From an uncultured Succiniclasticum sp. (GTDB lineage Bacteria > Bacillota > Negativicutes > Acidaminococcales > Acidaminococcaceae), in NCBI GenBank assembly GCA_902801365.1, contig CADCHY010000006.1:1-64000 (forward strand): a DNA stretch of 64,000 bases, given 5' to 3'. The position numbers and the translations under genes are program-made. Positions 3,206 through 24,108 of the stretch are shown piece after piece. Each line of letters starts with the position of its first letter. Positions within the stretch are counted from its first letter, which is position 1. The notes under the pieces were generated by a model. That model was given only the letters and a program-made list of their open reading frames with translations, searched no databases and was not told the origin of the DNA.

Positions 3206-6200
3206 ATGAACAGAATCTACAAATTGATTTGGTCCAAAGTTAAAAACTGTTATGTTGTTACGTCTGAACTGGCGAAGAATCATGGGAAAAATTGTGCCCG
3301 CAGTAAAAAGAGCAATGTTCTAAAAAGTTCAGCAGTTCTTTCGTTAAGCATTGCTTTGGCACTTGGAGTTACCGGGCAAGCATTTGCAGAAGACCTAAAT
3401 GTTGATGGGAACCTGGCAGTTACCGGTGGGGCCACTGTTGGTGAAACCCTGGCAGTTACCGGTGGGGCCACTGTTGGTGAAACCCTGGCAGTTGGTGAGA
3501 GCCTGACAGTTACCGGTGACGCAACTGTTGGTGGGAACCTGGCAGTTACAGGAAACACGACAATTGCAAATCTGCAAGTGAGCAATGGTATTATAAATAT
3601 GGGAACATCACAGGGCGGATATCCTCACCAAATCGTAATCGATACGAACTCTAATATCGCATTAGGAGAGAGTTATAGTAGTAGTTATTTTTTCCAGGGT
3701 AATACCTCTAATGCCGTAGCAATAGGTAGCTTTGCTGTTATAAATAATACTACTGGTGGTGTCGCTATAGGAGATAGAGCTTCTGTATATAATGGAGGAA
3801 AAGTCGCTATTGGCAGAGGCGCTACTGCGAGGGGCAACAATTCGATTAATATTGGTGGAAATATTGGTGGCTGGGGTAGTGCGTACGGAGATTTTAAAGC
3901 AGACGGAGAAGATGATACTGTTATAGGAGGATCTGCCAGCGGGTATAATAACACCGCAATAGGCAGCGGAAGTAATGCAGGATATTGGTCAAATCAATAT
4001 GGAAGACCAAGCCAGGACAATACTGCCATAGGGTACAATGCAATTGCAGAAGGTGAAAGAGAAACGGCAGTTGGGTCACAAAGTCATGCCGGTGGCTGGA
4101 ACAGCACGGCTGTCGGCTATAAGGCAGAGACCGTAAGATCTGATTCTGTAGCAGTAGGCGCAAACAGCAAAACTAATGGAGATGCAAATATTGCGATCGG
4201 TCCTTATGCATCAACGTATAGCTACTCCAGTATTGCTGTTGGGCATGGAGCACAGGCAAATACGGATGATTCCATTTCGATGGGCCGCTCAGCAAAGGTT
4301 GAATATATTGAATCGGCGCAAACAGACGATACTCGAAGATTTGCCCAAAATGCAATAGCTATTGGTCAGTCCAGCATTGCAAGGGGATTAGATGCTACCG
4401 CGGTGGGAAGAAATTCCGTGGCAAACAGAAGAAATTCTACAGCATATGGAAATAACAGCCACGCGAATGGCTGGAACTCAATCGCGATTGGTAATAAAAG
4501 TATAGCGGGGCTGGAAAGCAATATAGAAAAAATTACTTATAACGAAGAAGGTAAGGCTATTGTCACAATAAAAGATGCTGAGTCCGGTCAGTCTGCCGTA
4601 GCAGTCGGAAACCGGGCCCGCGCAATCGAGGAATATTCTACTGCTGTCGGCGCAAGTACAAATGCAGAAGGCTGGCACAGCGTGGCCGTAGGCGATTCCA
4701 ACAGTGCTGTCGGCCGGTTCAGCACGGCCATGGGCGCAGGCTGGTCAAGATATACAGTAGATGAAGACGACAACGATAACACGGAAGCGCCAAGAAAATA
4801 TGAATCTATTGGTGCTAACCAGGCGACCGGTGATTACAGCACGGCAGTCGGATATGGGAACGCCACTACAGGCGATAACAGCACAGCATTGGGCATGCAG
4901 AACGCGGTGTCCGGCAATAATTCCATCGGTATCGGCACTAAAAATATCATCGGTTCCGTAACCAAACCCGGCGATACCAAAGAATTAACGGCAGATACCG
5001 ACAAGGGAAACGTTACTGGTTTTGCCTTTGGTAATGAGAATGAAATAACCGGCAATAATTCCATCGCAATCGGTGTCGGGAACAAAGTATCCGGTGAGAA
5101 CTCCGGTGCCTTTGGTGATCCGAACATTGTAAACGGAAACAATTCTTACGTTGTCGGTAATAACAGCAGGGTTGAAAAAGATGCCAACGAAGGCTTTATC
5201 ATGGGTAACAAGAGCAAGGTTTCCGGACAGGGCGGTATTATTGCCGGCAGCAACTCCGAGGTAACCGCTAAAGATTCCGTTGCCATTGGTAACCGTGCAA
5301 AAGCTACCATAGCAAACTCTGTAGCACTGGGCAGCGGATCCGAAACTACGCATATGGGTGGTTTGAACGGCAAGAAGGAAATTGAGATTCCCGGTACCAA
5401 TACGAAATATACAAACGTGACCGGTGAAAGCCCGGTAGGCACTGTCAGCGTTGGTAAGCCGGGCGAAGAACGCACGATCACCAACGTGGCAGCCGGCCGC
5501 GTTGGCCCTGGCAGCACCGACGCTATCAACGGTTCTGAATTGTATGCCGTGGAACAGCAGGTCGTTGCCAACTCGGCAGATATCGTTAACTTGAGCAACC
5601 GCATCGATAAGGTAGGTGCCGGCGCTGCGGCTCTGGCAGGCTTGCACCCGCTGGACTTTGACCCGGATGAAAAGTGGGATTTCGCTGCTTCCGTCGGCAG
5701 CTACAAGAGCGAGCAGGCTGTCGCCATCGGCGCGTTCTACCGTCCTAACGAAGACACCATGTTCAGTATTGCCGGTACAATCGGTGACGGGCGTAACATG
5801 GTCAACGTGGGTGTAAGCTGGAAGTTCGGTCAGAAGAACCGTATTTCCGCCAACCGCATTTCTTCCGCAAAAGAAATCATCGAGCTGCGCAAGAATCAGG
5901 AAAATGTACACTCCTTCCTGGCTGATGCCGTAGCAGGCAACCAGCTTGACTTGTCCAAGATTCAGCTGTTCCCGGATGTGGAGGAAAACCACTGGGCCTA
6001 TGACTATGTAGCCACCATGGCCGGCAACGGCGTACTGGAAGGCTATCCGGACGGTTACTTCAAGGGCAACCGCAACATGACCCGTTACGAAATGGCAGCG
6101 GTGCTGTATCGTCTGATGCAGAACGGCGCGCGCCTGAGCGACAAGGCTCTGACCGAGTTCGCACCGGAACTGGATCGCATCCGCGTCGATACGATTACCC

Positions 6201-6430
6201 ACCATAAGGATGGCACACCGCATATCCAGCGTGTTCGTACGATTAAGGAACGGGTAGAGGAAAAACCGGACCCGGCCTATAAAGAAGAAAAATTAGCACA
6301 AGAAAAGGCTGCTAAAGAAAAAATCGCAAAAGAAAAAGCGGAAGCCAAGGCTGCCAAAGAACAGCTGGCAAAAGAAAAAGCGGCAGCTAAGGCAGCTAAA
6401 GCAAAGGCAGCAGAAAAACCGGCCGAATAA
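3206..6430 (+). CDS. Trimeric autotransporter adhesin with YadA head, YadA anchor and C-terminal SLH domain
   Basis: 1074 residues. Residues 1-25 form an extended type V signal region (ESPR: MNRIYKLIWSKVKNCYVV), with signal cleavage after about A61. Next come short LAVTGGATVGET repeats (about 70-115), then many YadA-head repeats of the SxAIG..AxAxG type (about 150-720), and a neck/stalk with TNVAAGR and a DAINGSELYAVEQ motif. The YadA anchor (about 808-876) encodes the four outer-membrane strands. Unusually, an SLH domain follows the anchor (about 918-975: FPDVEENHWAYDYV, GYPDGYFKG, MTRYEMAAVLYRL), and then a Lys/Ala-rich tail (about 1020-1074). The part after the barrel should face the periplasm, so the SLH domain could bind the cell wall. 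First gene of the adhesin island; likely role is adhesion or aggregation. Confidence 0.93.
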   Translation: MNRIYKLIWSKVKNCYVVTSELAKNHGKNCARSKKSNVLKSSAVLSLSIALALGVTGQAFAEDLNVDGNLAVTGGATVGETLAVTGGATVGETLAVGESLTVTGDATVGGNLAVTGNTTIANLQVSNGIINMGTSQGGYPHQIVIDTNSNIALGESYSSSYFFQGNTSNAVAIGSFAVINNTTGGVAIGDRASVYNGGKVAIGRGATARGNNSINIGGNIGGWGSAYGDFKADGEDDTVIGGSASGYNNTAIGSGSNAGYWSNQYGRPSQDNTAIGYNAIAEGERETAVGSQSHAGGWNSTAVGYKAETVRSDSVAVGANSKTNGDANIAIGPYASTYSYSSIAVGHGAQANTDDSISMGRSAKVEYIESAQTDDTRRFAQNAIAIGQSSIARGLDATAVGRNSVANRRNSTAYGNNSHANGWNSIAIGNKSIAGLESNIEKITYNEEGKAIVTIKDAESGQSAVAVGNRARAIEEYSTAVGASTNAEGWHSVAVGDSNSAVGRFSTAMGAGWSRYTVDEDDNDNTEAPRKYESIGANQATGDYSTAVGYGNATTGDNSTALGMQNAVSGNNSIGIGTKNIIGSVTKPGDTKELTADTDKGNVTGFAFGNENEITGNNSIAIGVGNKVSGENSGAFGDPNIVNGNNSYVVGNNSRVEKDANEGFIMGNKSKVSGQGGIIAGSNSEVTAKDSVAIGNRAKATIANSVALGSGSETTHMGGLNGKKEIEIPGTNTKYTNVTGESPVGTVSVGKPGEERTITNVAAGRVGPGSTDAINGSELYAVEQQVVANSADIVNLSNRIDKVGAGAAALAGLHPLDFDPDEKWDFAASVGSYKSEQAVAIGAFYRPNEDTMFSIAGTIGDGRNMVNVGVSWKFGQKNRISANRISSAKEIIELRKNQENVHSFLADAVAGNQLDLSKIQLFPDVEENHWAYDYVATMAGNGVLEGYPDGYFKGNRNMTRYEMAAVLYRLMQNGARLSDKALTEFAPELDRIRVDTITHHKDGTPHIQRVRTIKERVEEKPDPAYKEEKLAQEKAAKEKIAKEKAEAKAAKEQLAKEKAAAKAAKAKAAEKPAE
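3413..3555 (+). repeat. 36-bp coding tandem repeat in the adhesin N-terminus
   Basis: Two perfect 36-bp copies (3413-3448, 3449-3484) encode LAVTGGATVGET and are followed by degenerate copies to about 3555. The unit length is a multiple of three, so copy-number change would alter length without shifting frame. Confidence 0.85.
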
Positions 6431-12907: not shown

Positions 12908-13504
12908 TTATTTTGTTTTCATAGCACAGTACAGCCAGGAAGGACTCACGTTCAGTTTTGCCACCGCTTCCCGGTAAGACAGTTTTCTTTCGCGGATCAG
13001 TTTCGCTATCTCCTCAAAATGTTCCGGAAGTGTTTTTCGCGGTCGTCCCAGCTTAACGCCCCGGGCTCGTGCCGCGGCAATCCCTTCTGCCTGCCGCTTG
13101 CGGATGTTGTGCCGTTCCGTTTCCGCCACGTAGCTTAAAATCTGCAGTATGATATCGGCGATAAACCATCCCGTCAGATTATCCCGTGATGTGCGTGTGT
13201 CCAGCAGCGGCATGTCGAGGACGATAATATCCGCCTTTTTGGTATGGGTAATCAGATTCCACTGTTCCAGTATTTCTTCATAATTTCGTCCCAGCCTGTC
13301 TAAAGAAGTGATGACAATGCAATCCTCCGGCTTCAGGGTCCGCAGCAGCTTTTTGTATTGCGGACGGTTAAAATCTTTGCCGCTCTGCCAGTCAGTAAAA
13401 ATACAATGCGACAGTATGCCGTATTCAAGCAGCGCAGTACGTTGCCTGTCGGTATGCTGGTCTTTACTTGATACCCGTATATAGCCGTATACAGTGCCCG
13501 ACAT
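12908..13504 (-). CDS. Serine recombinase (resolvase/DNA invertase family)
   Basis: 198 residues, the normal length for Hin/Pin/resolvase enzymes. The N-terminal catalytic domain has YGYIRVSS (nucleophile serine at about 12), the SLDRLGRNYEEI helix near 85, and the conserved RxNI-like AETERHNIRKRQAEGI at the start of the long E-helix. GVKLGRPRK then leads into a C-terminal helix-turn-helix (LSYREAVAKLNVSPSWLY). Such enzymes cut and rejoin DNA at short palindromic sites to invert or excise segments. It lies between surface-protein genes, where invertases often switch expression. No paired inverted sites were found around it, so it may instead be a resolvase left by a mobile element. RBS GGGGGC before ATG 13504. 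Confidence 0.9.
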   Translation of the reverse strand: MSGTVYGYIRVSSKDQHTDRQRTALLEYGILSHCIFTDWQSGKDFNRPQYKKLLRTLKPEDCIVITSLDRLGRNYEEILEQWNLITHTKKADIIVLDMPLLDTRTSRDNLTGWFIADIILQILSYVAETERHNIRKRQAEGIAAARARGVKLGRPRKTLPEHFEEIAKLIRERKLSYREAVAKLNVSPSWLYCAMKTK

Positions 13505-13831: not shown

Positions 13832-13963
13832 AAGTGTACCTTTGTCTGCAAAGACTGCGGTTACGGTAAAGCAGACAAGAACCGGCGCGGAGGATCCATC
13901 TCGGTGGATTACAATGCGGCACGGAATTTAGCTGTTTATAAATCGGAGGATACGAAACTCTGA
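13832..13963 (+). pseudogene. Relic of a TnpB/OrfB-type transposon nuclease C-terminus
   Basis: A 43-codon frame from just after a stop at 13829 to TGA at 13961 reads CTFVCKDCGYGKADKNRRGG then SVDYNAARNLAVYKSE. The CxxCG zinc-ribbon half followed by DYNAARNLA is the hallmark of the end of TnpB (IS200/IS605 and IS607 OrfB) and related Cas12-like proteins. The upstream zinc-ribbon half and the RuvC catalytic parts are absent and no start codon fits, so this is a 3' remnant. It shows that a transposon of this kind was once inserted at this point between the adhesin genes. Its DNA is GC-richer than the flanking AT-rich spacer. Confidence 0.7.
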
Positions 13964-14029
13964 TTTTATATAGATAATATTAATATGTTCATCTTTAACC
14001 AATTATTTTAATAAAGAAAGGGAGAAACC

Positions 14030-17000
14030 ATGAACAAAATTTTTAAGGTTGTCTGGAGCAAAACGAAAAACAGTTATGTCGTTGTGTCTGAGATTGCCAA
14101 ACGCAATGGCAAGTGCAGTTCGAGTTTAAATAAAAAACTGATCGCCGCGTTTCTGATTGCAGGGACTGTGTTGTCTGCAGGCGGCAGTGCGTGGGCGGCT
14201 TCCTATTCGGCAGGAGGGGCGACTGCAAACGGCAGAGAGTCTGTAGCAGTTGGAGCAGGTTCAGAAATCAACGGGAGTCTCTTACAAGGGGCGACAGCTT
14301 CTATTTATGGTCCATACAATATAATAGATTCAAAAACCGGTGTTATGTACGATGGGGTTGCAAACAGCGTTGTTGGCGTGGGAAATTTAACAAATAACGC
14401 AAATGGCGCTTTAATCTGGGGTGCAGGAAACACTATAGAGAATGCATATGGAGATGTTAGTAAGTCTACTGAATTACAAGCTGCAGTTAGAGCGTATATG
14501 CAAAGCCAAACAGAGGACAACTTAAAAAAAGCTATTGATGCCCTGTCGAGCGCTGTTGCTGGCAGTGGTGGCAATGTTATGGCGGTTGGTGGAGCGAATA
14601 CTGCGGGATCCGAAGGAAATGTTTCTTACTCGCAGCTTATGGGTGTATCTAATAAATTGCAATCGGGCAACTTCAATTTCTTGGATGGCTATAATAATAC
14701 TGTGAAGGGCGATAATAATATTGCAATTGGTTCCGATATTATTATAACAGCAAACGAAGCTGTAGTAATTGGCAAAGAAGGTAAAGTCGAGAGCAATAAT
14801 GGAGACGGTAGTTTTGTGCTTGGTAATAACGCTTCGGCAACGTCTGCAAAATCAGTAGCATTGGGCAGCGACTCTGTAGCGGATCGAGAGGCAGGAGGGG
14901 AAGTTGGTTACGATGTAATGGAAGAATCAGCTTATTCTGGCACTGATAAAACTTCTCCAACATGGACTTCCACGCTGGGAGCGGTATCGGTCGGCGTAGC
15001 AAAGGATGCTGCCGGAAAGCAGCAAACCCGTCAGATTATTAACGTTGCAGCAGGTTCTAAACCTACCGATGCTGTCAACGTAGCGCAATTGCAATTGGTT
15101 GCATCGGCTGTTGAAGACGCAAAAGTGCATTATTTCAGTGTAAATGACGGAGGAAGTCCTAAAAACAACTATGACAACGATGGTGCAAGCGAAACCTATG
15201 CTATTGCAATTGGTCCCGATGCCAGCGCAAGCGGTTCTTCCAGCATTGCTATTGGTTACGGCGCGCAGGCTACGGGCGATGGCGCGATTGCGATTGGCGA
15301 GGGCTCAACCGGACAGCTGATTGCCAGTGGAAGCAATTCCTATGTTCACGGTTTTTCCGCTCAGGCGGCGGGACCGGACGCGACAGCATGGGGCATTCTG
15401 ACAGTGGCGGGGCAGGACGAGGCCGACCGGAATGCTACCTGGGAGATGCTGAACCAAATGGATCACGCAGGGGAACCCGGTGAAAAAGATGAGTTCGGCA
15501 TAGGAGCCACGGCGTGGGGACAATATAATAAGGCATATGGTACAGATGCCACTGCCTTTGGCGAGGGAAATATTGCGTATGGCATTCATTCGACTGCCTT
15601 TGGTACTGAAAATACAACGTATGGACGTGCTTCGACTGCTTGGGGTGAATTCAATGAAGCAAGCGGATACGATTCAACAGTCTTTGGCCAAAGTAACGTA
15701 GCCTCTAATGCCCAGGCGACGGCATTTGGGGTCGGCACGACAGCCAGCGGTGAAGCATCGACTGCGTTTGGTGTTTCAACAACTGCCAGTGGATTTATGG
15801 CGGCAACTGCATTTGGTTACGGGACAACAGCCGAAGGTTCGGCATCAACTGCGTTTGGAATGATCTCAACCGCAAGCGGGATGGCATCTACGGCGTTTGG
15901 CGCGTATACAAATGCGACCAAAGATTATGCGACGGCATGGGGCTATGGTACAAATGCTACCAACAACTATGCAACAGCATGGGGTGCATCCAACACAGCC
16001 AGCGGCCAGGCGGCTACTGCTTTCGGTAATGGAACTAAAGCGTCAGGAAATATGGCGACTGCCTTTGGATCTGGCTCACAAGCAACCGCTTTGAACGCAA
16101 CGGCGTTTGGCGTAAAAAATACAGCCAACGCCCAGGCTGCAACAGCTTTCGGTAATTTGACAACCGCATCCGGGCTGATGTCCACTTCCTTCGGTCAGTA
16201 TACGGAAGCTAGTGGCAAAGGAGCGACCGCTTTTGGTCTCGGTACTGCCGACGAAAAAGTAACAGCTTCCGGTGAAGGCGCTACTGCTTTCGGTAGCAAG
16301 ACCGTAGCTGCCGGTAACTACGCTACTGCCTTCGGTGTGAATTCCAAAGCCTATGGAGAAAACTCGCTGGCAGCTTTAGGCGGTACTGTTGGCAAAACGG
16401 CGAATGGGGAAGGTAAAGGATCTGTGGCCATTGGCGATGGCGCAGAGGTCCTTGTAGACTATGCGTATGCTATTGGTCAGAACGCGAAAGCTTTGGAAGA
16501 GAATACGATTGCCATTGGCAACAATACAGAAGCAACTGGTGCCGGTGCCGTCGTATTTGGTAATGAATCCAAAGTGTCCGGTGAGAACAGCATTGCCATC
16601 GGTAAAGGCCATACGGTAAGCGGGAATAATTCCGGTGCCTTCGGTGATCCGGACACTGTTGACGGAGATTATTCTTACGTTGTAGGTAATAACAGCACTG
16701 TTGACAGCGATGCAAACGAAAGCTTTATCATGGGTAACCAGAGTACAACTTCTGCTAAGAGAGGCCTAATTTTTGGTAATGAAAGCAAGGTCTCCGGCGA
16801 GGGCGGTATTGTTGCCGGCAGTAAATCTGAGGTGTCAGCCAAAGATTCTGTTGCCATCGGCAACAATGCCAAGGCTACCATGGAAAATTCGGTAGCGCTG
16901 GGTAGCGGTTCTGAAACCACACATATGGGCGGCCTTGACGGAAAGAAGGAAATAGAGATTCCGGGCACCAACACAAAATATACGAACATTAAAGGTGAGA

Positions 17001-17899
17001 GCCCCGTGGGAACTGTCAGTGTGGGTAAGCCTGGCGAAGAACGTACAATTACCAACGTGGCAGCCGGCCGCATCGGTCCTGACAGTACAGATGCTGTCAA
17101 TGGTTCCGAACTGTACGCGGTTGAACAGAAAGTAGCTGCAAATTCGGCAGATATTATCAATTTAAGCAACCGTGTTGATAAAGTCGGTGCAGGCGCAGCA
17201 GCGTTGGCAGCCTTGCACCCCATGGACTTTAACCCGGACGACAAGCTGCAGTTCTCGGCCGGCGTAGGTAACTACCGCGGTGAAACGGCGGCAGCCGTCG
17301 GTGCGTTCTATCGGCCAGACGAAAGTGTCATGTTTAGTATCAGTGGAACATTCGGCAACAGCGATAACATGGTAAACGCAGGCATCACCTTCGGTCTGGA
17401 CGGCACCCGGAACCGGATAACCCGGAGCCGCACGGCCATGGCCCGCGAGATCCAGGATCTGCGCAGCCTGGTGACCCAGATGGCGGCCCGGATGGACCGT
17501 CTGGAAGGTGCTAATACGGAGACGGCCATGTTCCCGGATGTACCGGAAAATCACTGGGCTTACGAGTATGTGGAAGACCTGCAGAAACGCGGCGCGCTGA
17601 AGGGATATCCGGATGGTCTGTTCAAGGGTGACCGTTCTATGACACGTTATGAATTTGCGGCGATGTTGGACCGCCTGGTCCGCAGCGGCGTAACGCTGGA
17701 TTCCAAGATTGCCAAAGAGTTCGAGCCGGAACTGGGTCGTATTTATGTAGAACGGATCTCCGGTCAAGACAATGACCGCAAGAAAGTGGAACGGGTACGT
17801 GTCAACAATTCGGATTCGAAGTATCCGGAAGGGAAGACCCGTGACGTCTACGGCAGCAAGATTGTGACGGAGATTCCGAAGGCAGCGGAAGTGAAGTAA
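14030..17899 (+). CDS. Trimeric autotransporter adhesin with aromatic YadA-type head repeats and C-terminal SLH domain
   Basis: 1289 residues. ESPR (MNKIFKVVWSKTKNSYVVVS), cleavage near A56. Regular YadA-head repeats (about 60-440) are followed by a long block (about 445-780) of 14-15-residue repeats in which the usual AIG core is replaced by TAFG or TAWG. Standard repeats then return, with SGAFGDPDTV and VVGNNS segments. The neck/stalk has GKPGEERTITNVAAGR and STDAVNGSELYAVEQ. The YadA anchor (about 1055-1125) is followed by a short coiled coil (about 1135-1165) and an SLH domain (about 1166-1220: FPDVPENHWAYEYVEDL, GYPDGLFKG, MTRYEFAAMLDRL). The stalk-to-anchor part is nearly the same protein as in the 3206 adhesin but with many synonymous differences. 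RBS AAGGGAG. An adhesion role is expected; ligand unknown. Confidence 0.92.
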   Translation: MNKIFKVVWSKTKNSYVVVSEIAKRNGKCSSSLNKKLIAAFLIAGTVLSAGGSAWAASYSAGGATANGRESVAVGAGSEINGSLLQGATASIYGPYNIIDSKTGVMYDGVANSVVGVGNLTNNANGALIWGAGNTIENAYGDVSKSTELQAAVRAYMQSQTEDNLKKAIDALSSAVAGSGGNVMAVGGANTAGSEGNVSYSQLMGVSNKLQSGNFNFLDGYNNTVKGDNNIAIGSDIIITANEAVVIGKEGKVESNNGDGSFVLGNNASATSAKSVALGSDSVADREAGGEVGYDVMEESAYSGTDKTSPTWTSTLGAVSVGVAKDAAGKQQTRQIINVAAGSKPTDAVNVAQLQLVASAVEDAKVHYFSVNDGGSPKNNYDNDGASETYAIAIGPDASASGSSSIAIGYGAQATGDGAIAIGEGSTGQLIASGSNSYVHGFSAQAAGPDATAWGILTVAGQDEADRNATWEMLNQMDHAGEPGEKDEFGIGATAWGQYNKAYGTDATAFGEGNIAYGIHSTAFGTENTTYGRASTAWGEFNEASGYDSTVFGQSNVASNAQATAFGVGTTASGEASTAFGVSTTASGFMAATAFGYGTTAEGSASTAFGMISTASGMASTAFGAYTNATKDYATAWGYGTNATNNYATAWGASNTASGQAATAFGNGTKASGNMATAFGSGSQATALNATAFGVKNTANAQAATAFGNLTTASGLMSTSFGQYTEASGKGATAFGLGTADEKVTASGEGATAFGSKTVAAGNYATAFGVNSKAYGENSLAALGGTVGKTANGEGKGSVAIGDGAEVLVDYAYAIGQNAKALEENTIAIGNNTEATGAGAVVFGNESKVSGENSIAIGKGHTVSGNNSGAFGDPDTVDGDYSYVVGNNSTVDSDANESFIMGNQSTTSAKRGLIFGNESKVSGEGGIVAGSKSEVSAKDSVAIGNNAKATMENSVALGSGSETTHMGGLDGKKEIEIPGTNTKYTNIKGESPVGTVSVGKPGEERTITNVAAGRIGPDSTDAVNGSELYAVEQKVAANSADIINLSNRVDKVGAGAAALAALHPMDFNPDDKLQFSAGVGNYRGETAAAVGAFYRPDESVMFSISGTFGNSDNMVNAGITFGLDGTRNRITRSRTAMAREIQDLRSLVTQMAARMDRLEGANTETAMFPDVPENHWAYEYVEDLQKRGALKGYPDGLFKGDRSMTRYEFAAMLDRLVRSGVTLDSKIAKEFEPELGRIYVERISGQDNDRKKVERVRVNNSDSKYPEGKTRDVYGSKIVTEIPKAAEVK

Positions 17900-17953: not shown

Positions 17954-17982
17954 ACCCGGGCATAATGCCCGGGTTTTCTTTT
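17954..17982 (+). terminator. Rho-independent terminator
   Basis: ACCCGGGCA (17954-17962) and TGCCCGGGT (17966-17974), followed by TTTCTTTT. Confidence 0.9.
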
Positions 17983-18130
17983 GTATGGAATCATTAGTGT
18001 CTAATTATACGGGTAGAAAGATAAATCATACTACTCAAAAATTCAGAAAAATGATAAAATTCATGCGGTGAAAATTCATTGCAATGCAGTTAAAATATGA
18101 ATCTCAACCTTTTGGGAAGGGGGTACGAGA

Positions 18131-18934
18131 ATGAATAAAATTTATTGCGTGATCTGGAGCAAAGTCAGAAACTGCTATGTAGTTGTCTCGGAAATTGCCA
18201 AAGCACACAGTAAAGGCAGTTCAGCTGTCCGCCGTGTTCCCTGTATGGGTGCAGTCCTTACTACAATGTTGTTGGCTTCTGTTTTGAGTTTTGGGATAAG
18301 TGCGCCTGTTTGGGCAGATGGAACGGCGACGATAACCGGCGCATCAGGCAGTAATACATTAGCTACTATTAAAGCTGGAAAAGGGATTTCTGTTACTGAG
18401 GAAGACGGTGTGGTTGTTACTGTTTCTGCAGACGGTTCATTGGCTCTTCTGAACGATTACATGGTGTTTAGTTCGGTGTATGCAGATGATAAGCCCGTTG
18501 TAACAAATACAAAAAGTTCTTTTGCTTTAGGTCGTAGAAGTGTTATCAAAGGGTCCGATGCATCGTCTTTGAGTGAGAATAACATCGCAATTGGCTCAAT
18601 GGCGCAAGTTTATGCGTCGTCAACAAAGGGTTGGAATACTGCATTAGGATATAATGCAAGAACTGGTGCTGATAAGAATATTTTTACTAATTATTCAACT
18701 GCAATTGGCAGTGAGGCCAGAGTTTTTGGGGATTGGGGTATTTCTATCGGAAATACTTCTCAGGTAGGTTCAACGCAGTCTTATAAGAATGATCAGAACA
18801 AAACTGTCTATGCAACTGCTAATAAGGCGGTTGCCATGCGGTTGCCATTGGGAATAATTCAGCTGCATATTCTGATAACAGTACAGCAATTGGTAATGGT
18901 GCTAAAGCAGGTAAAATTACTACAAAAACAGTAA
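18131..18934 (+). CDS. Trimeric autotransporter adhesin, 5' fragment of a frameshifted gene
   Basis: This is the N-terminal part of one gene spanning 18131-24108. As read it gives 267 residues: ESPR (MNKIYCVIWSKVRNCYVVVS), signal cleavage near A62, an N-terminal beta-rich stretch (TITGASGSNTLATIKAGKG), then YadA-type head repeats (NIAIGSMAQV, TAIGSEARVFG). The sensible sequence stops at KAVA, after which the frame goes out of register and ends at 18934. The cause is an exact 11-bp tandem duplication at 18827-18848. With one copy the frame reads KAVAIGNNSAAYSDNSTAIG and continues into the downstream part. Product as written: a short secreted head fragment with no anchor, so non-functional as an adhesin. 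RBS GGAAGGGGG at 18115-18123. Confidence 0.88.
   Translation: MNKIYCVIWSKVRNCYVVVSEIAKAHSKGSSAVRRVPCMGAVLTTMLLASVLSFGISAPVWADGTATITGASGSNTLATIKAGKGISVTEEDGVVVTVSADGSLALLNDYMVFSSVYADDKPVVTNTKSSFALGRRSVIKGSDASSLSENNIAIGSMAQVYASSTKGWNTALGYNARTGADKNIFTNYSTAIGSEARVFGDWGISIGNTSQVGSTQSYKNDQNKTVYATANKAVAMRLPLGIIQLHILITVQQLVMVLKQVKLLQKQ
18827..18848 (+). repeat. 11-bp tandem duplication that breaks the adhesin reading frame
   Basis: GCGGTTGCCAT occurs twice back to back (18827-18837, 18838-18848). With both copies the gene is out of frame. With one copy the length from 18131 to 24108 is 5967 bases, exactly 1989 codons including the stop. Confidence 0.95.
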
Positions 18935-19116
18935 AAGTTTCAAAAGCCACCGCAATTGGTGATTCGTCTCAAGCTACTAACAATGATACTACTGCGATAG
19001 GTTCAGGCTCAAAAGCTTTTGGTTCGAGCAGTTCGGCAATCGGTGCATATACTGTTGCTACCGGAATTCAAAATGTTGCGGTAGGCACGGGATCAGAAGC
19101 CCGGAAATATGAGACT

Positions 19117-22100
19117 ATGGCTCTGGGTTTCCATTCGGTCGCTGCTCATTCGGAAAGTATTGCTGTAGGGCATGATTCAGTGACTTTTGGTGATAGTTCG
19201 CTGGCGATAGGTCATTTAGCTTTAACTGGCATGCCAGTCATAGAAGGGTATAGTGATAAAGCTGGTATCAAATACGTTGAGGTCCCAAACGGAAGCAAAA
19301 TCAGTTCTCAGCCAAAAAGTACATCAAAGCTATATATTCAGACATCTGATGGAACCGTACTATTATACGAATGTACGATTGACGCTGAAGAGAAAGGTAA
19401 ATATTATAAGGTAAAAGCTAAAGAAACTTATGATGCACAAGGAAAAGTTAATGGATGGAAATTTGTAAAAGTTGATAAATTTGGGGACGATGCTGAAAGT
19501 GATGACGATGCTGTCCAGTATAGAGCGGTAGAGAATACAAATAAAGATATCAGACCGTCAGGCGATGCGGTAAGTCATATTGACTATTTTGTACAGATTG
19601 AAAAAGACAATAATGGTACGTTTAAAGATGTCGCAGGTACAAAAACAAATACACTTGACGGTGGTATTGCTATCGGTTCCTATACGATTGCTCAGGGAGA
19701 ACATTCCATGGCATTGGGTCTTACCTCTGCCGCGTATGGGAAGAACAGCGTTGCCCAGGGTCTGTACGCTAATGCATATGGCGAAGGAGCCATTTCTTTC
19801 GGACATGAAGCGTTATCAGGCGCGCATGTTAAGATTGAACCTGGCAGAAAAAAGATAGAGGATGTCTATACAATCAATTTTTCAGTATCAAAAGGGGGAG
19901 AATCAGAACGGACTCTGTTAGACGGCAGCATAGCTAAAGTTAACAAGAACAGTATCTATCTCATTGAAGACGGAAACATAGAAGTAAACGCTAACGGAAA
20001 AATTCTCAAAGTTGGTGACGCAGATTTTGGTTACGATGCGGACAAAATAAAATTAAAAAAATCCGGTGATTCAGTAAAAAGAGATGCTGATACAGGATAT
20101 TATTATTATCAAAAGAATGGAAAAAATGTAATGGTCAGCCCGGATGAGATACTGACTTTTACTGGCACTGATGGTCAGACGGTTGATATTGCGGCTGGTA
20201 AGATGACCTTGTCATCCGGTGGCATCTCCTTCGGTTCCTATTCTCATGCTGAAGGAGACAAGGCGATGGCAATCGGCCGTGTGGCAGGCGCCTACGGAAG
20301 AAACAGCACGGCCGTTGGCCAGTTCGCTAATTCCTTAGGCGAAGATTCCATGGCAATAGGTCATAATGCTTCGGCAGGTGCGAAAGTGGATATGAGCACA
20401 TTGGACGAAGAGCATCATTCTGCCACCATAAAATTGACAGACGGGATGCCTGAAACCAGCGGCGGTAAAGCCGGCATTGCGATAGGTTCTTATTCCCATG
20501 CGGCCGGCGACAAAGCTGTAGCTATTGGCAGGGGAAACATCGTAACCGGGGATAACAGTATCGCGATTGGTACCGGTCATAAGGTGAGAGGTAATAATTC
20601 CGGTGCATTTGGTGATCCGAACGTTGTAAATGCGCACAATTCTTATATTGTTGGTAATGAGAGTACGATTGACGGGTCAAATACGGCTGAAGAGATTACT
20701 GTCACGGACGCTTTTGTTATGGGTAACAGCAGTAGTGTTGATAAAACCGGAGGGATTGTTTTTGGTTCCGGTTCTTCTGTGACAGCAGAGAATGGCCTTG
20801 CGCTGGGAAATAATGCTGCTGTATCCGTTGCAGGCGGTGTGGCGCTGGGAAATGAAAGTGTGGCAACCAGGGAGCTGAGCGAAGGTGGATATAACCCGGC
20901 AACGAGAGAAGAAAAGTATACAGATGGGACGGGAGTATGGGAATCTTCAGCGGCAGCGGTATCCGTTGGCGGAACGGTTACAACGGTAGACGATGAAGGG
21001 AATGCAACAACGAAAACAGTTACCCGTCAGATTACCAACGTAGCTGCAGGATCAGAACTTTCTGACGCGGTGAACGTTGCCCAGCTGAAAGCAGCGAGCG
21101 TGGAACTGGAGAAAGGCGCGAATATAACACTGGGAACGAAACACGACCCGGATGACGGTCATATGATTTATACGATCAATGCAGCGGGTAGCGGGGATGC
21201 AATTCATTTCTACTCTGTCAATTCTTCAGACGAGACAGCAGGAAACTATGACAATAAAGGGGCAAAGGGTAGCAATGCTCTGGCAGCAGGCGTAAATGCG
21301 AAGGCTAGTGGTGATAATTCTGTTGCTGTCGGCAACGATGCAAACGCAAAAGCAGATAATTCTATTGCCATTGGCAATGGGGCAAAAGCGAAAGAAGATG
21401 ACGCAATAGCCATCGGTAGCGGTGCGACGGCAAAGGGTGTCGGATCTATTGCCCTGGGACGTCACGGTGCTAAAGCTATCGGTTGGGACGCCATGGCCTG
21501 GGGTGTAGACACAAAAGCCAAAGGCGACGAATCAACTGCCTGGGGTTCATTAACGAAGGCCAAAGGAGACGGAAGCACCGCCTTCGGTTTTGAAACCGTA
21601 GCAAAGGGAGATTATTCCACCGCCTGGGGTGAACAGACAAAAGCAACAGGAGAAGTTGCCACTGCCTGGGGCAGCAATGCGACGGCGAAAGGGGATTCTT
21701 CTACCGCGTGGGGTGATGAAACAATAGCTGCTGGGACAAATGCCACCGCCTGGGGCGTACAGACAAAGGCAAAAGGCTTCTCATCCACGGCGTTCGGTTA
21801 TTATACAAAAGCCAAAGGAGAAATGGCGACGGCCTGGGGGAGTTATACGAATGCGGCAGGAAACTCTTCGACGGCGTTCGGCGAAAGAAGCACGGCTTAT
21901 GGTGGTAATTCTCTGGCGGCGCTCGGAGGCACAACCGGGTCGGATGCTGAAGACGGAAATGCGGTAAGCTCCGTTGCTTTGGGCAAAAACGCAGTTGCGT
22001 TTAAAGACCATACCTATGCCATCGGTCAGGATGCAGAAGCAAGGGGAGATAATACGATTGCGCTGGGAAACAGCGTAGTTGCTGAAGGGAAGAATGCGGT

Positions 22101-24108
22101 TGCCATCGGTTCGGGGAAAATCACCCGGCAGATCGGAACTCTGATAGAAACCGATTCTCACGGAGAGACAACGTATTCCTTTACGGATGGCTCCGGTAAT
22201 TCAAGGACAATTGAAGAAGATGAAGACGGACGTCATTATTATGTAAATGACAGTGGAACAAAGATTTATCTGGAAAGAAATGATGTCCTGAGTATGACTG
22301 ATAACAGGGATGATGACGAGGCGGAAGATCTGATTACCACGACTAAATACCTCATAACGGAAGCTGAAAATCCTGCGCAGGCAAGCGGCGATAATTCTAT
22401 TGCGGTGGGAATGTCCGCAAATGCGTCCGGGAATGACGGTATTGCTATCGGAACCGGATCTGGTGCCGGGGAAGATGGCGCAATCGCCTTTGGCAACAAC
22501 GCCTCTGCAACTAAGGCAAACAGCGTGGCGTTGGGCTCCGGTTCCTCTATGACAGAAATTGGCGGTATGAAGGAGCTGGCAATCAACGGGAAAACATATA
22601 AATTTGCAGGGACACCCAGTGAAGATAACGGGACAGTGAGCATTGGTTCTGCAGGCAAAGAACGTACGATTCTCAATGTGGCTCCGGGCCGGATTTCTGA
22701 CGCCAGCACTGACGCCATCAACGGCAGCCAGTTGTATGCAGCTATTGATGCAATGCAGTTCGATATTGTGGCCGGAGACAACGTTGAGGTGATTAAAGAA
22801 ACTAGCAACGGACATACCAAGTATACGATTCATTCGCTAAATGCGATTGTTCAGGCTGTTCCGGACAATACTGTTACGGTTGATGATGAGGTCGGAACAG
22901 GAGCGACAAATGGTAAAACGACTGACTTGACTCCAGATAGTACCGGCTCGGCTGCAGGCAACGGAACGGGTGCAGGAACAACCGGCGGCAGTACAACTGC
23001 AACAACGCCGGAACCGACACCTTCCCAGGAATCGATTGGGCCGTTGGCTCCGAATGAAACGAAACCCAATAACCATACGACAACGTACACTGTGGATGCA
23101 GCTGATTCCAAGGTGTCCGGTGTCGAGGTAAAATCAGGCGAATCAAAAACAACAGCCAATAAAACGGAAACCGAGTATACCGTCACTGTAACGTCCAATG
23201 AACAGAGTGTTGAGGATAACGTAATCAAAACAACAGTAGTTCCCAAAACTGCAAAATTCACTGTTACGGATACCCGCAACAGGGTTGTCGCCGGAGACAA
23301 TATTACAGTCACAGCAAGCGGTGACGATGAAAAGGGTCCTGTTACTTATACCATCAGCGCCAAAGCTGCCACTAATGTTAAAGTAATTGACGGGGATAAC
23401 ACCACGGTGACCGAAGGCAAAGACGGTGACTTCACAACGTATGCGGTTAATGTAGTAACCGACGGCAAAGTAGCTTCCGGCGACAGCGGCATTGTAACCG
23501 GCGGCACCGTTTACAAGGAAACCCGTGTGGAGAAAGACGGCAACTACATTAAGAAAGACAACACGGCCGCGGAAAACATTACAGCGCTGGATGAAAAGGT
23601 TAAAGATAATGCGACGAGTATCGAAAATCTGAATAACGAGTTCAACAACACGTTCAATCAGATGAACCGTCTGGACGACCGTATGCGGAAAGGCCTGGCA
23701 GGCGCGGCCGCGTTGGCAGCCCTGCACCCCATGGACTTTGATCCGGATGATAAGCTGCAGTTCTCGGCCGGCGTGGGTAATTACCGCAGTGAAACGGCAG
23801 CGGCTATCGGTGCCTTCTACCGTCCGAATGAAAAAGTGATGTTCAGTATCGGCGGAACTTTTGGCAACAGTGATAACCTGATTAATGCCGGTATTACCTT
23901 CGGGCTGGACGGCAACCGGAACCGGATTCCCCGGAGCCGCAACGCTATGGCTCATGAAATTGTGGAGCTGAAACAACAGGTTGCAAAACAAGACGAACAG
24001 ATTGCTAAACAAAATGAACAAATCGCCAAACAGGATGAACAGATTGCCAAACTGACTGAACTGGTGAACAAACTGGCCGGGACAGAACAAAAGGCTGAAA
24101 CCCGGTGA
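19117..24108 (+). CDS. Trimeric autotransporter adhesin, main 3' part of the frameshifted gene
   Basis: 1663 residues from the first ATG of this frame, but the frame is meaningful back to 18849 and belongs to the gene starting at 18131 (restored length 1988). It contains many YadA-head repeats interrupted by non-repeat insertions. A block of TAWG/TAFG aromatic repeats lies at about residues 788-945 of this frame. Further repeats, a Thr/Pro/Gly-rich region (about 1250-1320), stalk domains with VVAGDNITVTASG-type motifs and a coiled coil (about 1490-1525) follow. The YadA anchor spans about 1528-1600. After the anchor it has a heptad coiled coil made of AKQDEQI/AKQNEQI repeats instead of an SLH domain. 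Without the upstream signal peptide this part would not be exported, so the gene is off unless the duplication is resolved. Followed by two terminators. Confidence 0.88.
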   Translation: MALGFHSVAAHSESIAVGHDSVTFGDSSLAIGHLALTGMPVIEGYSDKAGIKYVEVPNGSKISSQPKSTSKLYIQTSDGTVLLYECTIDAEEKGKYYKVKAKETYDAQGKVNGWKFVKVDKFGDDAESDDDAVQYRAVENTNKDIRPSGDAVSHIDYFVQIEKDNNGTFKDVAGTKTNTLDGGIAIGSYTIAQGEHSMALGLTSAAYGKNSVAQGLYANAYGEGAISFGHEALSGAHVKIEPGRKKIEDVYTINFSVSKGGESERTLLDGSIAKVNKNSIYLIEDGNIEVNANGKILKVGDADFGYDADKIKLKKSGDSVKRDADTGYYYYQKNGKNVMVSPDEILTFTGTDGQTVDIAAGKMTLSSGGISFGSYSHAEGDKAMAIGRVAGAYGRNSTAVGQFANSLGEDSMAIGHNASAGAKVDMSTLDEEHHSATIKLTDGMPETSGGKAGIAIGSYSHAAGDKAVAIGRGNIVTGDNSIAIGTGHKVRGNNSGAFGDPNVVNAHNSYIVGNESTIDGSNTAEEITVTDAFVMGNSSSVDKTGGIVFGSGSSVTAENGLALGNNAAVSVAGGVALGNESVATRELSEGGYNPATREEKYTDGTGVWESSAAAVSVGGTVTTVDDEGNATTKTVTRQITNVAAGSELSDAVNVAQLKAASVELEKGANITLGTKHDPDDGHMIYTINAAGSGDAIHFYSVNSSDETAGNYDNKGAKGSNALAAGVNAKASGDNSVAVGNDANAKADNSIAIGNGAKAKEDDAIAIGSGATAKGVGSIALGRHGAKAIGWDAMAWGVDTKAKGDESTAWGSLTKAKGDGSTAFGFETVAKGDYSTAWGEQTKATGEVATAWGSNATAKGDSSTAWGDETIAAGTNATAWGVQTKAKGFSSTAFGYYTKAKGEMATAWGSYTNAAGNSSTAFGERSTAYGGNSLAALGGTTGSDAEDGNAVSSVALGKNAVAFKDHTYAIGQDAEARGDNTIALGNSVVAEGKNAVAIGSGKITRQIGTLIETDSHGETTYSFTDGSGNSRTIEEDEDGRHYYVNDSGTKIYLERNDVLSMTDNRDDDEAEDLITTTKYLITEAENPAQASGDNSIAVGMSANASGNDGIAIGTGSGAGEDGAIAFGNNASATKANSVALGSGSSMTEIGGMKELAINGKTYKFAGTPSEDNGTVSIGSAGKERTILNVAPGRISDASTDAINGSQLYAAIDAMQFDIVAGDNVEVIKETSNGHTKYTIHSLNAIVQAVPDNTVTVDDEVGTGATNGKTTDLTPDSTGSAAGNGTGAGTTGGSTTATTPEPTPSQESIGPLAPNETKPNNHTTTYTVDAADSKVSGVEVKSGESKTTANKTETEYTVTVTSNEQSVEDNVIKTTVVPKTAKFTVTDTRNRVVAGDNITVTASGDDEKGPVTYTISAKAATNVKVIDGDNTTVTEGKDGDFTTYAVNVVTDGKVASGDSGIVTGGTVYKETRVEKDGNYIKKDNTAAENITALDEKVKDNATSIENLNNEFNNTFNQMNRLDDRMRKGLAGAAALAALHPMDFDPDDKLQFSAGVGNYRSETAAAIGAFYRPNEKVMFSIGGTFGNSDNLINAGITFGLDGNRNRIPRSRNAMAHEIVELKQQVAKQDEQIAKQNEQIAKQDEQIAKLTELVNKLAGTEQKAETR

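Follow-up and report, generated by a model that had tools for sequence, protein, structure and literature searches.

An exact 11-bp tandem duplication splits the reading frame of a giant trimeric autotransporter adhesin gene in an uncultured Succiniclasticum

The window analysed here, a stretch of 64,000 nucleotides from the draft genome of an uncultured Succiniclasticum sp., a rumen member of the Acidaminococcaceae, carries at 18131-24108 a gene for a YadA-type trimeric autotransporter adhesin (TAA) whose frame is split by an 11-bp duplication. The gene follows a second, intact TAA, and the features of the pair are listed below.

14030..17899, + strand: neighbouring intact TAA of 1289 aa, its anchor followed by an SLH domain (Pfam)
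17955..17982, + strand: hairpin with T run resembling an intrinsic terminator, 3' of the neighbouring TAA, CCCGGGCATAATGCCCGGG then TTTTCTTTT (read from the sequence; putative function)
18114..18123, + strand: Shine-Dalgarno-like GGGAAGGGGG, 7 bases 5' of the start codon (read from the sequence; putative function)
18131..18934, + strand: upstream open frame of 267 aa with the ESPR signal peptide and the first part of the head (ORF list; Pfam ESPR E=2.4e-15)
18826..24108, + strand: downstream open frame of 1760 codons, YadA head repeats, stalk, membrane anchor and C-terminal coil (frame analysis; Pfam matches 19117-24105)
18827..18837, + strand: GCGGTTGCCAT, copy 1 (sequence)
18838..18848, + strand: GCGGTTGCCAT, copy 2 (sequence; the borders share no base, i.e. 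0-bp microhomology)

A promoter of its own is probable for the broken gene, given the terminator-like hairpin that follows the neighbouring TAA at 17955..17982. Upstream of the pair lie a serine-recombinase gene resembling an IS607 transposase (12908-13504, - strand) and, just before the first TAA, a remnant of a TnpB C-terminus (about 13840-13964); TnpB fragments also occupy the equivalent place in Succiniclasticum ruminis (locus L035) and precede another TAA (locus L029). Promoter inversion by this recombinase was considered and rejected: the promoters of the adhesins lack convincing flanking inverted repeats, and the gene, with a TnpB remnant next to it, has the appearance of an IS607-type transposase.

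In the frame whose positions leave a remainder of 2 on division by 3, no stop occurs from the ATG at 18131 to 18931; stops interrupt the frame with remainder 1 at 18820 and 18823, after which it stays open over 18826-24105 (5.28 kb), up to the stop at 24106. Both frames are open solely in 18826-18931, and the duplication lies inside this interval. Pfam places ESPR in the upstream piece and YadA_head, YadA_stalk and YadA_anchor in the downstream piece, where a coiled tail follows C-terminal of the anchor; the domain set of a type Vc TAA is complete and in order, but it extends over two frames, whereas the S. ruminis orthologue holds it in one. These domains bear out the initial annotation of the window, which had described a giant trimeric adhesin with a shifted frame, and its arithmetic holds: 18131-24108 spans 5978 bases with the domains split, and removal of one copy leaves 5967 bases (5978 - 11), or 3 x 1989, stop codon included. 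An internal restart at ATG 19117 was discarded as a candidate, since it falls within a head repeat and, lacking a signal peptide, would give no secreted protein.

The duplication was likewise recovered where it had first been described, with two exact head-to-tail copies forming a 22-base array at 18827-18848, a frame-changing exact tandem repeat (11 bp x 2) in coding sequence. No further instance of the array is present in the draft assembly (2.05 Mb in 53 contigs). A pattern admitting one or two copies matched the two-copy form alone in this one assembly, the sole genome found for the species, and a search of the organism's own genome and of viral contigs returned no one-copy allele. Among perfect tandem pairs with a unit of at least 7 bp in the 64-kb window, a single one has a unit longer than 11 bp, at 36 bp, which is divisible by 3. 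By Markov shuffling, a window of this size is expected to hold 0.05 perfect pairs with a period of at least 11. The 36-bp perfect repeat runs in frame for 2.3 copies at 3412-3493, near the start of an intact TAA at 3206-6430, and a change in its copy number would alter length and keep the frame. The broken gene holds no multi-unit simple-repeat tract, with just A7 at 20055 and TAT x4 at 20098, both away from the break.

The anchor domain, used as query, matched sequences of Succiniclasticum and other Negativicutes, and the locus on NZ_FONL01000002.1 of S. ruminis DSM 9236 was used for comparison. There, in the same order, a fragment of TnpB is followed by orthologues of both TAAs, each intact: 1416 codons for the neighbouring gene, then 2435 codons for the broken one. 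On the S. ruminis protein, residues 11-243 match the upstream piece at 49% identity and residues 387-2362 the downstream piece at 41%; neither alignment contains a frame break, and the second covers the downstream piece over its whole length. At the homologous site of this relative, RGVAIGSNAKAWSDSSTAIG, a single frame reads through, and no expanded repeat tract is present in the S. ruminis gene. A comparison with related genomes, proposed at the outset as a check for the one-copy form, thus found an intact orthologue with the site in one frame. The 11-bp duplication is, judging from this comparison, the derived state, because the syntenic gene is intact and read through at the homologous site. 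Gene relatives among plasmids were limited to one 70-bp chance match, and the N-terminal piece found no relative among the genome contigs.

No second lesion was detected in 18826-24105, where the frame is open and the alignment to the intact relative continuous; further decay downstream, which had been named as the mark of a dead pseudogene, is therefore absent. Because the downstream frame is unbroken and the syntenic relative intact, the lesion is apparently young, or else the sequence is in error. In a neutral decay model (3.3% of point mutations nonsense; 0.1 indel per substitution assumed), the chance of no second lesion in the 1756 downstream codons is 0.07 at 0.4% divergence and 0.02 at 0.6%, and under the same assumption a neutral gene is expected to show another lesion once divergence reaches about 0.5%.

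The state of TAA genes across the genus was surveyed in 14 genomes, in which Pfam located 66 ESPR and 66 YadA_anchor domains. The tally was counted from the tables of the Pfam searches and frame lists, because a regular-expression survey of signal peptides had missed many variants. Thirty TAA genes had ESPR and anchor on one contig; 23/30 were in one frame and 7/30 were broken, as follows.

Window gene, 18827-18848: exact 11-bp duplication
G009:C17, MAG RUG113, L030 rc ~4905-4993: exact 44-bp tandem duplication
G001:C13, MAG RUG097: 17-bp imperfect tandem repeat, 15/17 identical
G010:C10: 38-bp imperfect tandem repeat, 36/38 identical
G004:C45: TAG stop and a deletion of about 0.3 kb
G009:C7: TAG stop
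G006:C166, MAG RGIG4304: TAG stop

In the three other repeat cases (G001:C13, G009:C17 and G010:C10), ESPR and anchor stand on separate pieces as in the window gene, and the imperfect 17-bp and 38-bp repeats may be native gene repeats with an indel and not fresh duplications. In S. ruminis, an isolate, none of the six complete TAAs is broken (6/6 intact), and at least 4/7 of the broken genus TAAs are in MAGs. In the genomes of two isolates, Acidaminococcus massiliensis and Dialister succinatiphilus, the frame is broken at G runs close to the anchor, and split TAA genes are reported in V. parvula SKV38, also an isolate (PMC7549365); breakage is therefore not only a MAG effect.

The survey also brought out features of individual genes. 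The premature TAG stops are in frame (L026 rc 496-498, L027 rc 953-955 and L028 2012-2014), each followed by a long open frame, and only about 8-13% of the genus's long frames end with TAG. Two of the three stops fall in different codons of one orthologue, ~99% identical between two species. The deletion in the G004 TAA (~0.3 kb, L026 rc ~3470-3498 versus L027) has a 29-bp repeat at its ends and also shifts the frame. The passenger of the TAA on L031 (G010:C10) matches the C-terminal trimerisation repeats of T4 gp5 (Gp5_trimer_C, Gp5_C), an unusual stalk or passenger, and an ESPR at G000:C1:21010-21147 (- strand) opens a frame of ~7050 codons, among the longest surface proteins of that genome.

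Tandem-repeat breaks look commoner in TAAs than in control DNA. A scan for frame-swapping tandem repeats gave four TAA cases, against a denominator of about 157 kb of complete TAA genes (summed frame lengths), versus three weak matches, none resembling a broken gene, in 1.59 Mb of control sequence taken from six Succiniclasticum genomes. The chance of at least four tandem-repeat breaks among the seven lying in TAAs is about 0.002, and 0.07 for exact duplications alone, values to be read with the caveat that the TAA genes were picked for inspection as already broken. Such an enrichment is expected without any switch, because TAAs are long, repetitive and probably dispensable, and most other genes cannot survive lesions of this kind.

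From the duplication, the frameshift, the open downstream frame and the intact relative observed here, the reading we favour, at a probability of roughly 0.6, is a spontaneous, recent and physically reversible knock-out duplication in an otherwise intact TAA, one of a group of often-broken dispensable genes. The 11-bp tandem duplication would have arisen recently in the head-coding part of an intact gene, shifting the reading frame after about 236 codons and leaving as product a signal peptide and short head fragment, without stalk or membrane anchor. As type Vc secretion requires the C-terminal anchor, surface display would presumably be lost and this adhesin be absent from the surface. Slippage could drop one copy and so restore the frame, a loss that is physically possible because the copies are exact and adjacent. 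The lesion would then be one instance in a family of dispensable surface genes, rich in repeats and often broken in the genus; the several kinds of lesion among the 7/30 broken TAAs speak for this reading. Against it stand the border without microhomology, which slippage duplications often have, and the expectation that mere decay would bring a second lesion more often than not.

The initial annotation went further and saw a captured OFF state of a phase-variable adhesin, with the duplication gained and lost often enough to serve as a working on/off switch. Its account of an exact duplication that breaks a giant adhesin gene stands; nothing else is broken downstream, the syntenic relative is intact, and the lesion appears recent. 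The term 'phase-variable' lacks support, given that the assembly holds no second allele and the gene no long simple-repeat tract. The adjacent exact copies, open downstream frame and intact relative would suit a switch, as would the exact 44-bp duplication in another Succiniclasticum TAA, the breaks at imperfect 17-bp and 38-bp repeats in two more, and the pneumococcal capsule genes that phase-vary by reversible duplications (Waite 2001 and 2003, cited in PMC4243769). The one-copy allele was nevertheless not found in the organism's own assembly, a multi-unit tract is absent from both the window gene and its relative, and other broken TAAs carry nonsense mutations; a switch at this locus is rather unlikely. 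A two-copy 11-bp unit is the look of any spontaneous small duplication, and with about a quarter of the complete genus TAAs broken, three by nonsense mutations that slippage cannot undo, turnover of dispensable genes fits as well as switching. That frame-shifting tandem duplications both recur in Succiniclasticum TAAs (11 bp; 44 bp in RUG113; imperfect 17 and 38 bp) and act as a population-level on/off mechanism is likewise unlikely.

An assembly or consensus artefact, in which pieces with an 11-base overlap were joined and the overlap left unmerged, would give an identical pattern, and the source is a 53-contig draft, 93% complete. The contrast between the intact TAAs of the S. ruminis isolate and the broken ones in MAGs points the same way, although the isolate V. 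parvula SKV38 also has split TAA genes (PMC7549365). The 22-bp array with its unique flanks fits inside one read, which makes ordinary k-mer assembly an unlikely source; moreover, no other gene is broken likewise in 464 kb of the assembly, and assemblers tend towards repeat collapse and not expansion. An artefact is accordingly judged unlikely. Ribosomes that shift by -1 within the 105-bp overlap, whether by leakiness or in a programmed way, could still yield some full-length adhesin; this would suit the downstream frame, which is -1 relative to the upstream one, both being open from 18826 to 18931. An X XXY YYZ heptamer is nonetheless absent from 18820-18934 and the S. ruminis relative reads without a frameshift, making this highly improbable.

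The favoured knock-out duplication resembles known variable surface loci in part. The adhesins UspA, NadA and HMW undergo phase variation through simple-sequence repeats, in tracts of many short units; there, likewise, slippage alters the frame or promoter of surface proteins, whereas the window TAA has two 11-bp copies and its relative is tract-free. If the duplication does toggle, duplication-based phase variation, known for pneumococcal capsule genes, would extend to the giant adhesins of a rumen commensal and would account for many broken-looking Succiniclasticum adhesin genes; if it does not, the locus is a warning that single-genome frameshifts in repeat-rich surface genes are not readable as switches without reads or strains.

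In Streptococcus pneumoniae, duplications within the capsule genes cap3A, cap8E and tts lead to reversible phase variation (Waite 2001, 2003, cited in PMC4243769). Common to these and to the window TAA are a tandem duplication in the open reading frame of a surface structure, the abolition of the product and the possibility of precise loss; reversion was observed in the capsule genes, whereas for the window TAA the two-copy allele alone is known and the target is the adhesin of a rumen commensal. With the TAAs of Veillonella and other Negativicutes, the TAA pair of the window shares the order of ESPR, YadA head, stalk and anchor followed by a C-terminal SLH domain or coil, the latter described after the anchor in Veillonella (PMC7549365), as well as clustered genes, some of which are split between strains (PMC5491611; PMC7549365). 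The window TAA is split by an exact 11-bp duplication, whereas the passages describing the Veillonella splits give no cause for them (PMC5491611; PMC7549365).
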